Positions 6,611-62,460 of a DNA stretch of 64,000 nucleotides are shown piece by piece. The notes below the pieces were generated by a model. It saw only the letters and a program-made list of their open reading frames with translations, ran no database searches and had not been told where the DNA came from. Each line of letters opens with the position of its first letter. Positions within the stretch are counted from its first letter, which is position 1. The DNA is taken from positions 1,302,001-1,366,000 of the forward strand of contig NZ_ARWI01000001.1 in assembly GCF_000478585.1 (NCBI RefSeq). Direction: 5' to 3'. The position numbers and the translations under genes were made by a program. The stretch is from Thiomicrorhabdus sp. Kp2 (GTDB taxonomy: Bacteria > Pseudomonadota > Gammaproteobacteria > Thiomicrospirales > Thiomicrospiraceae).

Positions 6611-7198
6611 ATGCGAACTGCAAGCGTTGAACGCGATACTTTAGAAACTCAAATTCAAATCACTGTCAACTTAGATGGTGACGGTACAGCAACATTTGAT
6701 ACAGGCGTACCTTTTTTTGAACATATGCTAGACCAAATTGCTCGACATGGCATGATAGACATTGACATAAAGGCCAATGGAGATACTCACATTGACGACC
6801 ATCATACGGTTGAAGATGTAGGCATTACCCTTGGTCAAGCCATAAATAAAGCAGTGGGCGATAAAAAAGGCATCACTCGTTATGGCCACGCTTACGTACC
6901 ATTAGACGAAGCGCTTTCTCGTGTAGTAATTGATCTATCTGGGAGACCAGGCCTGGTCTTTAATGCCGACTTTACCCGTGAAAAAATTGGAAACTTTGAA
7001 ACAGAACTAGTCTTTGAATTTTTTCAAGGCTTTGTTAATCATTGCAACGCAACACTACATATTGATTGTTTACGTGGCCATAATTCTCACCACCAAGCCG
7101 AAACCATCTTCAAAGCGTTTGGCCGCGCTTTACGCATGGCATTAAGCCAAGATGAGAGAATGGCAGGCAAAATGCCTTCTACCAAAGGCAGTCTATAA
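6611..7198 (+). CDS. hisB: Imidazoleglycerol-phosphate dehydratase
   Basis: A 195-residue monofunctional IGP dehydratase, unlike the bifunctional enterobacterial HisB. Metal-binding motifs are visible: [11 protein letters not shown] near residue 38, DDHHTVED near 67 and HNSHHQAE near 160, which bind two manganese ions. It performs the sixth step of histidine synthesis. It is the first gene of a tight hisB-hisH-hisA-hisF-hisE run, and its stop TAA directly abuts the hisH ATG. A nearby ATG at 6606 is out of frame. It carries one CCAGGCCTGG copy (6947-6956), read as PGL. Confidence 0.97.
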
Positions 7199-7837
7199 AT
7201 GAACCAGAAGCTAGTTGCCGTTATTGATTATGGCATGGGTAATTTACGCTCTGTTTCCAAAGCGGCTGAACATGTGTCGCCAGAAAACACTCGTATTTTA
7301 GTCACCAACAACCCCGACGACATTGCCAATGCTGATGCCGTCATCTTTCCAGGCCAAGGTGCTGCCAAAGCCTGTATGAATGCTTTGCAGAAAACGGGCA
7401 TGATTCACCCTGTACAACAAGCGGCTAAAGAAAAACCTTTTTTAGGTATCTGTATGGGTCTTCAAGTTCTTATGACCCACAGCGATGAGAACCAAGGCAT
7501 TCAATGCATGGATGTCATTCCTGGCAATGTTCAGCATTTTGATTTTGAAGAAAACAGCCCTCTAAAAACACCACACATGGGCTGGAACCAGATCCTGCAA
7601 ACAAAAGAGCACGCGTTATGGCATAACATTCCACAAGACAGTCGCTTCTATTTTGTTCACAGCTACTATGTACAACCAGAACATTCTGACTATATTTGCG
7701 GACAAACAACGCACGGAATCACATTTCCATCCGCGTTAAGCCACAATAACTTATTTGCAATTCAAGCCCACCCTGAAAAAAGTGCTGACCACGGCTTACA
7801 GCTATTTAAAAACTTTTTACAGTGGAACGGACAATAA
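7199..7837 (+). CDS. hisH: Imidazole glycerol phosphate synthase, glutamine amidotransferase subunit
   Basis: A 212-residue class I glutamine amidotransferase. The catalytic cysteine lies in GICMGLQ (about residue 83), and the catalytic histidine and glutamate in QAHPEKS near residue 190. HisH releases ammonia from glutamine and channels it to HisF. It starts directly after the hisB stop and is followed 18 bases later by hisA, with the ordinary gene order of this pathway segment. Confidence 0.97.
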   Translation: MNQKLVAVIDYGMGNLRSVSKAAEHVSPENTRILVTNNPDDIANADAVIFPGQGAAKACMNALQKTGMIHPVQQAAKEKPFLGICMGLQVLMTHSDENQGIQCMDVIPGNVQHFDFEENSPLKTPHMGWNQILQTKEHALWHNIPQDSRFYFVHSYYVQPEHSDYICGQTTHGITFPSALSHNNLFAIQAHPEKSADHGLQLFKNFLQWNGQ

Positions 7838-7855
7838 ATTTTAAAGGTTTAAAAA

Positions 7856-8596
7856 ATGTTATTAATTCCTGCTATCGACTTAAAAGATGGTGAATGCGTA
7901 CGCCTTCGTCAAGGCATTATGGAAGACGCAACCGTATTTTCAGGTGATATTGTTGCCATGGCTCAACGCTGGGTAGATCAAGATGCACGTCGCTTGCATA
8001 TGGTTGATTTAAATGGCGCTTTTGACGGCAAACCAGTCAACGGCGAAGCGGTTTATCAAGTTCGCCAAGCTTTTCCTGATTTACCAATACAAATTGGTGG
8101 CGGTATTCGAGACCTACAAACCATTGAAGCCTATCTAAATGCTGGCGTAAGCTACTGCATCATTGGCACAAAAGCCGTTCACAACCCTGAATTCGTTGCC
8201 GAAGCCTGCAAAGCCTTTCCAGGACACATCATGGTTGGTTTAGATGCCAAAGATGGCATGGTGGCAATCAATGGCTGGGCAGAAGTGACAGACCACGAAG
8301 TCACTCAACTTGGAAAACAGTTCGAAGACGACGGTGTTGAAGCCATTATCTATACTGATATCGGTCGTGATGGCATGATGCAAGGCGTAAACATTGAAGC
8401 CACGCAAGCTTTAGCCAAAGCTCTGACCATTCCAATTATCGCCTCTGGTGGAATCACAAACTTAGACGACATCCGCAAATTGGCCGAAATTGAAGCTGAC
8501 GGGGTTACTGGCGCAATTACAGGTCGTGCAATCTATGAAGGCACTTTAGACTTTAAAGAAGGTCAAACCCTTTCCGACCAACTTGCCCCAAAATAA
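7856..8596 (+). CDS. hisA: ProFAR isomerase (HisA)
   Basis: A 246-residue beta/alpha barrel that isomerises ProFAR to PRFAR. The catalytic aspartate is in the N-terminal IPAIDLKDG motif (about residue 8) and a second aspartate in YTDIGRDG near residue 169; the phosphate loops are IQIGGGIR (about 79-86) and ASGGI near 200. Length is normal. It is separated from hisF by 76 bases that include a 20-bp perfect palindrome of the CCAGGCCTGG family. Confidence 0.97.
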
Positions 8597-8604
8597 CAAT
8601 TAAA

Positions 8605-8624
8605 ACTTACCAGGCCTGGTAAGT
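8605..8624. repeat. CCAGGCCTGG-family palindrome between hisA and hisF
   Basis: A 20-base perfect palindrome, ACTTACCAGGCCTGGTAAGT, lies in the 76-base gap between hisA and hisF. The core is the dispersed 10-mer; here the flanks are also self-complementary. There is no T run after it, so it is not a typical terminator, though it could form a hairpin in the his mRNA. Confidence 0.9.
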
Positions 8625-8672
8625 CTTACTTATGACCAAGCCTTAAAACAATACTCAAATAGGAACAAACCC

Positions 8673-60455: not shown

Positions 60456-60556
60456 GTTCAGGTTCCTTTATTTTTAATGCTTTGCCAGGTATCATTCGAT
60501 ACACAGTAACTTTTCTCTTTTCAGTTTCTCGCTGACTATCTTATAAGGTATTTATC

Positions 60557-61567
60557 ATGATTGATCGCCAATTCCCCATCACCCGCATGCGTCGTATGCG
60601 TAAAGATGACTTTTCACGCCGTTTAATGCGCGAAAACGTACTGACAACCAATGACTTAATTTTGCCTATGTTCGTTATAGAAGGCCACAATAGCCGTGAA
60701 CCCGTAAAATCTATGCCAGGAGTTGAGCGTCTGAGTATAGACCTTTTGGTGGCAGAAGCCAAAGAGATTCATGCTTTAGGCATTCCAATGATTGCCCTTT
60801 TCCCTGTCACGCCTCCAGAGGCCAAATCTCTAACTGCAGAAGAAGCCTACAACCCAGAAGGTTTGGCCCAACGTGCTGTACGAGCAGTCAAAGCGGCCTG
60901 TCCTGAATTAGGCGTAATGACCGACGTGGCTTTAGACCCATTCACTACGCATGGCCAAGACGGCATTATTGATGAAAATGGTTATGTATTGAATGATGAC
61001 ACGATTGATGCACTTATGTTGCAAGCCCTGTCCCATGCCGAAGCAGGGGCTGATGTGATCGGACCTTCAGATATGATGGATGGCCGTATCATTGAAATCC
61101 GTGAACTGCTTGAAGAACACGGACATATTAATACCCGTATTATGGCTTACTCGGCTAAGTACGCCTCCTCTTATTATGGACCTTTCCGTGATGCGGTCGG
61201 TTCTGCGGGCAACTTGGGCTCTGGTAATAAATACACATACCAGATGGATCCTGCCAATCGCAATGAAGCTTTACATGAAGCCTCCCTAGATTTAAATGAA
61301 GGCGCAGATATGGTGATGGTAAAACCAGGTATTCCTTATTTAGATATTGTGCGTGACATTAAAAACGAATTTAAAGCGCCCACCTACGTTTATCATGTGA
61401 GCGGTGAATATGCGATGTTAAAAGCCGCAGCCCAAAATGGTTGGATTGATGAAAAACCCGTGGTACTTGAAACGCTACTCAGCTGTAAACGAGCTGGTGC
61501 AGATGGTATTTTGACCTATTACGCCAAACTGGCCGCCATTTGGTTAAAAGAAGCTCAACAGGATTAA
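60557..61567 (+). CDS. hemB: Delta-aminolevulinic acid dehydratase (porphobilinogen synthase)
   Basis: A 336-residue ALAD. The Schiff-base lysines are in [17 protein letters not shown] (about residue 203) and [10 protein letters not shown] (about 255). The metal site reads [14 protein letters not shown] with Asp in place of the zinc cysteines, so it is a magnesium type. It joins two aminolevulinates into porphobilinogen, needed for the many haem proteins here. The stop is four bases before aroE. Confidence 0.97.
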
Positions 61568-61571
61568 TGAC

Positions 61572-62405
61572 ATGACAGATAAATATGCCGTTGTTGGCTG
61601 CCCGATTGGTCATTCCAAGTCACCGCTGATTCATCGGCTCTTTGCCGAACAAACCCAACAAGACATGGTGTATGAGGCCATTTTAATTGACCCAGAAGAG
61701 AGTTCATTTAACTGGGCAATGGCGGATTTAAAAAACCAAGGTTATAAAGGTATCAATATTACCGTGCCATATAAACTTGATGCTTTTGAATACGCCGACA
61801 CACTAACCGAACGTGCTCAAAATGCACATGCCATCAACACCTTTAGCTTCAATACGGATGGAACGGTTTCTGGTGACAATACCGATGGCATCGGTTTAAT
61901 CAATGATATTGAAATCAATGGCCAATGTTTATTTAAAGACAAAAAAGTACTGATTCTTGGTGCTGGAGGCGCTGTTCAAGGTATTTTAGAACCGCTTTTA
62001 GAGAAGTTACCAGGCCTGGTACATATTGCCAATCGAACCGCCAAAAGAGCTCAAATATTGGGGGAACGTTTTGAAACTTCTGTGCCAATCAGCTCAAGTG
62101 GGTGGGAGGATATTCCTACACAGACTTTTGATATTATCATCAATGGCACTTCTGCTAGCTTAGAAGGTAAGTTACCGCCTATCTCAAATACATTAATTGG
62201 TGAAGACAGCTTGGTTTACGACATGATGTATGGTGCCAAGCCGACTGTATTTATGAACTGGGCAAAACAAGCTCAACCGAATTGCCAAACCATGGATGGT
62301 TTAGGCATGTTAGTGGGTCAAGCGGCTGAAGCGTTTTACATTTGGCGTGGCGTTCGTCCTGAAACGGCTAACGTAATTAAAGAAGTGAGAGAAACAATCT
62401 CCTAA
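61572..62405 (+). CDS. aroE: Shikimate dehydrogenase (NADP+)
   Basis: A 277-residue AroE. The substrate loop PIGHSKSP (about residues 10-17), the NITVPYK motif with catalytic Lys (about residue 65), NTDG near 103 and the nucleotide loop GAGGAVQG near 128 are all present. It reduces dehydroshikimate to shikimate in aromatic synthesis. Cotranscribed with hemB. A CCAGGCCTGG copy is read as LPGLV. Confidence 0.97.
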   Translation: MTDKYAVVGCPIGHSKSPLIHRLFAEQTQQDMVYEAILIDPEESSFNWAMADLKNQGYKGINITVPYKLDAFEYADTLTERAQNAHAINTFSFNTDGTVSGDNTDGIGLINDIEINGQCLFKDKKVLILGAGGAVQGILEPLLEKLPGLVHIANRTAKRAQILGERFETSVPISSSGWEDIPTQTFDIIINGTSASLEGKLPPISNTLIGEDSLVYDMMYGAKPTVFMNWAKQAQPNCQTMDGLGMLVGQAAEAFYIWRGVRPETANVIKEVRETIS

Positions 62406-62411
62406 TCACTT

Positions 62412-62460
62412 ACCAGGCCTGGATGTTTAACCAACAACCTTTTAACCTACCAGGCCTGGT
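62412..62460. repeat. Two CCAGGCCTGG-family palindromes between aroE and the carbonic anhydrase-like gene
   Basis: Copies at 62413-62422 and 62450-62459 lie in the 62-base gap between convergent genes. No other terminator is seen here, so the two copies, alone or paired, may act as the transcription end for both. Confidence 0.85.

Follow-up and report, generated by a model that had tools for sequence, protein, structure and literature searches.

Positions 1,302,001 to 1,366,000 of contig NZ_ARWI01000001.1 of Thiomicrorhabdus sp. Kp2 (genome G000; other genomes compared also carry G-numbers) form a stretch of 64,000 nucleotides, referred to here as the window, in which a single ten-base palindrome, CCAGGCCTGG, is scattered through and between genes. 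Among the copy-bearing genes scanned, those with a Pfam match are ordinary and encode a hisB-type dehydratase, a DsbH-like protein, an aminotransferase, a DUF748 protein, a DctM protein and a shikimate dehydrogenase. Our recount of 20 exact copies, spanning 6947 to 62459, agrees with the initial annotation, as does its expectation of about 0.02 copies: 100 dinucleotide shuffles of the window, which has a GC content of 40.3%, gave a mean of 0.02 and a maximum of 1. The runner-up ten-base palindrome has 3 copies. One 12-base form had been described as predominant, and ACCAGGCCTGGT indeed accounts for 15 of the 20 copies; likewise, the copies do fall both within and between genes, with 10 of the 20 lying outside all open reading frames (ORFs) of at least 100 amino acids (aa). 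An example of motif-carrying sequence is AAATTTACCAGGCCTGGTAAATTT, and all sites in the window are collected in Table 1.

The excess extends well beyond the window. Across the whole genome (2,725,706 bp), CCAGGCCTGG occurs 718 times, against 0 for a control pattern consisting of the motif reversed but not complemented, and the eight-base core CAGGCCTG occurs 1133 times, corresponding to one exact copy per 3.8 kb and one core per 2.4 kb. Sampled G000 sequence totalling 471 kb contains 133 copies of CCAGGCCTGG vs 0.51 expected from a third-order Markov background, whereas the highest non-overlapping 10-mer with eight G/C positions reached 5 copies. Neither outcome that the initial annotation named as a refutation, a near-expected count beyond the window or a comparable excess of unrelated GC-rich 10-mers, was observed. 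Separately, a CACGAAGACA-type unit appears in the sampled stretches as repeated 10-mers (8-11 copies) and is probably a tandem repeat.

Table 1. Exact copies of the motif and core-retaining variants in the window (positions in the window)
Form	Position	Context
exact CCAGGCCTGG	6947..6956	within ORF 6611-7198, imidazoleglycerol-phosphate dehydratase, PF00475
exact copy	8610..8619	intergenic, 14 bp past ORF end 8596
exact copy	13491..13500	within ORF 12118-14148, PF03190
exact copy	13848..13857	within ORF 12118-14148, PF03190
exact copy	17177..17186	within ORF 17156-17893 (-)
exact copy	19628..19637	within ORF 19011-20210, aminotransferase, PF00155
exact copy	20760..20769	within ORF 20310-23147, DUF748
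exact copy	21783..21792	within ORF 20310-23147, DUF748
exact copy	25888..25897	intergenic, convergent ORFs
exact copy	27194..27203	intergenic; palindrome extended to GCCACTCTACCAGGCCTGGTAGAGTGGC, terminator-like hairpin
exact copy	31810..31819	intergenic
exact copy	34528..34537	near 3' end of ORF 33178-34551, DctM
exact copy	42783..42792	within ORF 42406-43620, without Pfam match
exact copy	48296..48305	intergenic, close pair, first member
exact copy	48320..48329	intergenic, close pair, second member, 24 bp on
exact copy	53261..53270	intergenic; conserved at homologous place in G016
exact copy	57122..57131	intergenic; conserved at homologous place in G016
exact copy	62010..62019	within ORF 61572-62405, shikimate dehydrogenase
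exact copy	62413..62422	intergenic, convergent ORFs, pair member 1
exact copy	62450..62459	intergenic, convergent ORFs, pair member 2
variant GCAGGCCTGG	18395..18404	eight-base core intact
variant GCAGGCCTGG	24617..24626	core intact
variant CCAGGCCTGT	25688..25697	core intact
variant ACAGGCCTGT (AACAGGCCTGTT)	27789..27798	core intact; most frequent form in dialect B relatives
variant GCAGGCCTGG	33053..33062	core intact; identical letters at homologous place in G016 and G008
variant CCAGGCCTGC	33781..33790	core intact
variant ACAGGCCTGG	35497..35506	core intact; identical letters at homologous place in G008
variant ACAGGCCTGG	37736..37745	core intact; identical letters at homologous place in G008

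The motif consists of a strict core and looser, yet conserved, flanks. Within the 471 kb sample, ACCAGGCCTGGT occurs exactly 100 times, while 12-mers differing from it by one change number 46 when the change lies outside the eight-base core and 2 when it lies inside (~0.9 by chance). Core deviants by one base are scarce whatever the change, and the core is held just as tightly in coding copies as in intergenic ones; neither group includes a relaxed class. Conserved flanks reach ~7 bases beyond the core in G000, with A/T tracts 6-7 bases out, in coding copies too. Proceeding outward from the core, 64 intergenic copies show C (0.94), A (0.91), T (0.77), T (0.70), any base, A (0.67) and A (0.59), and 133 coding copies carry the same letters at 0.73, 0.71, 0.54, 0.57, any base, 0.53 and 0.49; together these frequencies give the G000 consensus AAnTTACCAGGCCTGGTAAnTT. 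Among 198 copies, A-tracts are found on both sides in 6, on one side in 57 and on neither in 135, where independence of the two sides predicts 6.0 and 57.0 for the first two classes. Intergenic copies have longer palindromic arms than coding copies.

Placement along the chromosome, based on gene calls from an ORF and codon-usage heuristic made for this analysis, is markedly uneven with respect to genes. A 464-kb sample of G000 contains 132 exact copies, of which 75 are coding, 55 are intergenic (13.6 expected, an approximately four-fold excess) and 2 lie at edges. Density is highest between convergent genes (19 copies in 7.6 kb, 2.5 per kb), followed by tandem (30 in 25.0 kb, 1.2 per kb) and divergent intergenic regions (6 in 15.1 kb, 0.4 per kb), with 0.18 per kb in coding sequence. 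The same intergenic excess is present in all eight other genomes tested and in every sampled dialect of the motif (dialects are defined below), including dialect C (25 of 57 copies; 5.3 expected) and dialect D (18 of 46; 4.3 expected), whose intragenic copies show no strand bias (15 vs 13). Spacing is more even than random, with a coefficient of variation of the gaps of 0.74 vs 0.99 (P = 0.0012; 100 sites and 99 gaps in the first 355 kb), and copies occur in all 20 sampled 20-kb stretches (2-13 each) as well as in the window. Copies are scarce on a 96.8-kb second contig of G019 (C2), which carries Rep3, ParA/ParB and F-type TraN genes and resembles a conjugative plasmid: the 40 kb read contain 3 cores vs ~18 expected. 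The 16-mer TTACCAGGCCTGGTAA was found in 4 viral contigs, no more than a guessed chance level. The plasmid-like contig also encodes a secretin and a T2SSE ATPase (L304, L305).

The motif is widespread in one family. An order-level sample of 62 genomes, which comprise a single family and seven genera, includes 32 in which the core reaches at least 200 copies, the reversed control never exceeding 36. These 32 are distributed over the window genus (15 of 32 genomes), g18 (7 of 11), g21 (9 of 9) and g22 (1 of 1), with none among the nine genomes of g17, g19 and g20. In the NCBI taxonomy, Thiomicrorhabdus and Hydrogenovibrio are placed within Piscirickettsiaceae. Fifteen genomes from other families of the class have 0-35 copies of the 10-mer and 0-13 of the controls (35 vs 10 in the highest), so that a few genomes outside the family show a weak excess, far under the family counts. 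A full-text search of the open-licence literature returned no report of such a motif for this group in the text it covers, which includes parts of PMC13020248, PMC5217627 and PMC6501319.

Four dialects, all sharing a GGCC centre, can be distinguished in the window genus group. Dialect A, ACCAGGCCTGGT, is found in G000, G007, G009, G015, G016, G019, G022 and G040, and by counts in G006 and G010; in sampled stretches of three other genera the A form is present at 3 of 8, 6 of 6 and 3 of 3 cores. Dialect B comprises CAGGCCTG flanked by A, G or C, with ACAGGCCTGT (AACAGGCCTGTT-like) as its top palindrome, in G018, G041, G005 and G008, with G002 assigned by counts alone. Dialect C is ACCGGCCGGT, with 36 copies in 80 kb of G024 vs 0.065 expected. 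Dialect D is the non-palindromic CAGGCCGGG, present in 15 of 60 one-kb bins of G021 vs 0.71 expected, and G004 is assigned to it by 6 CAGGCCGG/CCGGCCTG words in 15 kb. With its single A-tract, dialect D reads AAAAAACTCAACAGGCCGGGTA, and its aligned copies follow AAAAAACTCAA-CAGGCCGG-GTA with the tract on one side only; dialects A, B and C are self-complementary and D is not. Most dialect calls draw on 20-87 kb per genome, and on less for G001, G002, G004, G006 and G010. Genomes designated as motif-free were surveyed for other 9-mers over 44-64 kb in G003, G011, G013, G014, G020, G042, G044 and G046, and over less elsewhere. Long G runs (GGGGGGGGA-like 9-mers), perhaps phase-variable tracts, are over-represented in motif-free G017, G043 and G045.

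The dialects follow phylogeny. Mapped on an rpoB tree of 27 genomes (three rows partial; five of the 32 genomes lacked an rpoB match and were left out), the dialect states need 7 changes vs 13.3 when shuffled, and none of 200 shuffles was as low. The motif has been lost, or was never acquired, in several branches.

Individual sites persist between species, and palindromic and non-palindromic forms are swapped in place. Homologous places were identified by blastn among sampled stretches, and the resulting comparisons are reciprocal and not independent. Dialect-A genomes retain the core in 111 of 190 comparisons with one another; mean identity is 75.5%, at which chance retention is estimated at ~10% (0.755 to the eighth power, ~0.10). 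Against motif-free genomes, the copies kept are 5 of 75 (A), 3 of 29 (B), 1 of 13 (C) and 0 of 54 (D). With G021 or G004 as the target, the D form stands at the place of a relative's copy in 7 of the 26 comparisons that start from A and 11 of the 28 that start from B; in the reverse direction, with D as the query, the figures are 7 of 45 and 11 of 49. Distinct replaced places number eight in G021 and two in G004, one of the latter being the rpoB place that already figures in the G021 tally. Among these places is a pair of neighbouring, inverted copies, both of which have been rewritten.

Only two bacterial families are known to have self-DNA uptake tags. A motif that is conserved, dispersed and divided into species-specific dialects resembles such a tag, and the even spacing, the preference for non-coding sequence, the large surplus of perfect over one-off copies and the dialects that track the tree around an unchanging inner core suggest that the motif is probably a DNA uptake signal, as judged from these patterns. 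This would be the third family to use one, and the palindromic form would be unusual. The A/T flanks, the persistence and in-place replacement of sites, the scarcity on the plasmid-like contig and the presence of ComEC in most motif-bearing genomes count towards the same reading. An uptake signal was among the causes listed in the initial annotation and is now the best reading. Regular spacing, non-coding preference and perfect copies far above singly mismatched ones are given as hallmarks of both the uptake signal sequence (USS) of Pasteurellaceae and the DNA uptake sequence (DUS) of Neisseriaceae in the available sections of PMC1626085, which also place AT-rich segments next to the USS core at helical-turn spacing; dialects of USS and DUS with a fixed inner core that follow phylogeny are described in an excerpt of PMC12616744. 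The more ambitious proposition, on which we are evenly divided, is that marine sulfur oxidisers independently evolved a third system for recognising self DNA, based on a palindromic, direction-free signal with two-sided A-tracts that was spread family-wide, made one-directional in dialect D by in-place point changes, and lost several times.

Under the uptake reading, a competence surface receptor, for which a minor type IV pilin is the probable candidate, would bind the rigid CAGGCCTG core together with the outer bases and A/T flanks, and its binding would favour the uptake of motif-carrying DNA. Recombination of such self DNA could then restore and spread intact copies while one-off copies are lost. 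A shift in receptor preference would cause existing copies to be converted, where they stand, to a new dialect, and where uptake or the preference is lost, copies would decay. Given its self-complementarity, an intergenic copy could additionally contribute to a terminator hairpin.

Several observations weigh against an uptake signal. ComEC is encoded by 16 of the 18 motif-bearing genomes of the genus group, but also by 12 of the 14 motif-free ones, and so does not discriminate between them. A prepilin signal is present in 31 of 32 genomes. No receptor emerged among 10 prepilin groups covering at most 10 motif-bearing genomes, whose divergence singled out no gene as tracking the dialects. The motif densities given above for exact copies and cores fall below those of USS and DUS, put at ~1 per kb in the available sections of PMC1626085, and a palindromic signal is without precedent among the known ones in the literature compared. 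Plasmid scarcity and lineage losses would equally fit other chromosome-bound signals, and a bias of deviations towards the outer positions is described for the highly iterated palindrome HIP1 too, in the portions of that literature available. Finally, dialect C shares no places with the other dialects: none of 83 comparisons shows the target's own dialect, and C as the query keeps C in 2 of 47. In-place replacement is therefore demonstrated for A/B and D only.

Among pilins, the FimT/GspH type was considered as the receptor and dropped, since PF12019 was matched only in G011, G020 and G044, all of them motif-free, and the matches sit by coordinates in pseudopilin clusters also found with PF07963. 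Other prepilin-like genes include a cluster in L277 (4474-8455 and 10868-11452) that encodes big proteins of ~270, 470 and 570 aa sharing a CPDxDGDGxENR-like stretch, along with a 194-aa prepilin; similar clusters occur in L280, L284, L295 and L290, and such a cluster may specify a pilus.

The main rival to an uptake signal is a chromosome-organising protein of the nucleoid or segregation machinery, which, as a homodimer, would bind a ~22-bp palindrome at a few hundred regularly distributed sites and bend the DNA with the aid of the A-tracts. Several features would suit such a protein: the palindromic form, A-tracts on both sides that stand roughly two helical turns from each other, the regular spacing, the plasmid scarcity and the low density between divergent genes. 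We nonetheless regard it as unlikely, given that the G021 dialect is non-palindromic with one A-tract, that dialects switch as a whole and close relatives have lost the motif, and that coding copies are held to the same core as intergenic ones. A transcription-linked element, either a set of terminator stems or the binding site of a very large regulon, is very improbable: the gene-end excess, the hairpin at 27194 and the longer arms of intergenic copies fit it, but 75 of the 132 placed copies are coding with an unchanged flank consensus, and density is highest where promoters do not lie.

Causes involving methylation were proposed in the initial annotation, which noted two overlapping CCWGG sites in each copy. 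CCAGG and CCTGG are present in every exact copy, although they abut rather than overlap, and Dcm-like methylation with very-short-patch repair could in principle produce such pairs. This route is now largely refuted, and its remaining probability is close to nil. Family searches for methyltransferases and Vsr in the 32 genomes of the genus group found Vsr (PF03852) in 1 of the 18 motif-bearing genomes and none in the other 17; CCWGG outside the motif shows a mild excess of 605 vs ~460 expected by base composition in the 471 kb sample; and paired CCWGG sites do not occur in dialects B, C and D. Vsr corrects one kind of mismatch, and, as shown above, core deviants of every kind are scarce. An orphan methyltransferase is likewise unsupported. 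PF00145 and PF01555 had no match in eight of the 18 motif-bearing genomes (G010, G015, G018, G021, G022, G024, G040 and G041, of which seven are 99-100% complete and G010 86%), a search that left other methyltransferase families, including adenine enzymes, outside its range. The C5 methyltransferase of G000, G019 and G007 adjoins an EcoO109I-type nuclease, whose site, RGGNCCY, is not within CAGGCCTG, and in G006 the partner is of Eco47II type. The nearest PDB chain to the G000 enzyme is M.HaeIII, with M.HhaI a close second; HaeIII recognises GGCC. The specificity of the G000 enzyme is not settled by sequence alone, but the enzyme is missing from many motif-rich relatives. The EcoO109I-type pair, found in three motif-bearing relatives, lies at L096 504-2538 (G000 C1, ~1.92 Mb), L095 and L097, and its methyltransferase, as scanned in G000, has a MerR-like N-terminal helix-turn-helix. 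The scarcity of Vsr, the eight genomes without the searched families and the EcoO109I-type context together argue against both the Dcm/Vsr route and a by-product of the HIP1 type, in which a methyltransferase for the core word and methyl-directed repair ratchet mutations towards the palindrome. A non-palindromic dialect is also unexpected for a homodimeric site. The HIP1 likeness drawn in the initial annotation holds for the iteration, the palindromy and the strict core with looser ends. What alters the interpretation most is the set of dialects, one of them non-palindromic, which were out of sight of that annotation. Because the outer-base bias is shared and the author of the HIP1 model reports some HIP1-rich genomes without the expected methyltransferase, these results lower the probability of such a cause, which we consider decidedly small, between those of the nucleoid protein and the transcription-linked element.

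Two further observations stand apart from the motif. Adjacent long proteins of 706 and 716 aa with similar sequences, encoded at 34657-39013 of the window, are presumably GGDEF-EAL signalling proteins, going by their motifs. In a record titled candidate division KSB1 (L051), the encoded helicase shares 60% identity with the gammaproteobacterial helicase of the window; this record is possibly a mis-binned contig.

If the motif is an uptake signal, it adds another case, unrelated to the two known ones, from free-living marine chemolithoautotrophs, and the trait is not bound to host-associated bacteria; the four dialects and several losses would then offer many closely related natural states in which to study how a receptor and hundreds of genomic sites evolve in step. 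Otherwise, the motif is still an iterated sequence that spans the family and forms dialects, with a testable cause.

Of the known systems, HIP1 (GCGATCGC) and its alternates, as characterised in the portions of the literature available, share with the motif a GC-rich iterated palindrome that is swapped in some genomes and deviates chiefly at the outer bases. They are unlike it in that the searched methyltransferase families are absent from many motif-bearing genomes here, one dialect is non-palindromic and the flanks carry A/T tracts. DUS of Neisseriaceae, according to the excerpts compared, also form several phylogeny-distributed dialects with an invariant inner core and are frequent at gene ends. 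They differ in having no flanking motifs and in not being self-complementary (PMC1626085, available sections), and their receptor, ComP, is established (PMC12616744, excerpt), whereas that of the motif is hypothetical. The USS of Pasteurellaceae has an unrelated core (GCGG against the GGCC centre), and most dialects of the motif differ from it in being perfect palindromes with tracts on both sides and at lower density. Both systems nevertheless have hundreds of copies, a short strict core and A/T-rich flanks at helical-turn distances, and the USS, in the sections available, has the same even spacing, non-coding preference, predominance of perfect over one-off copies and family-wide, tree-following dialects. 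The nearest resemblance is found in dialect D, whose A-tract is one-sided.

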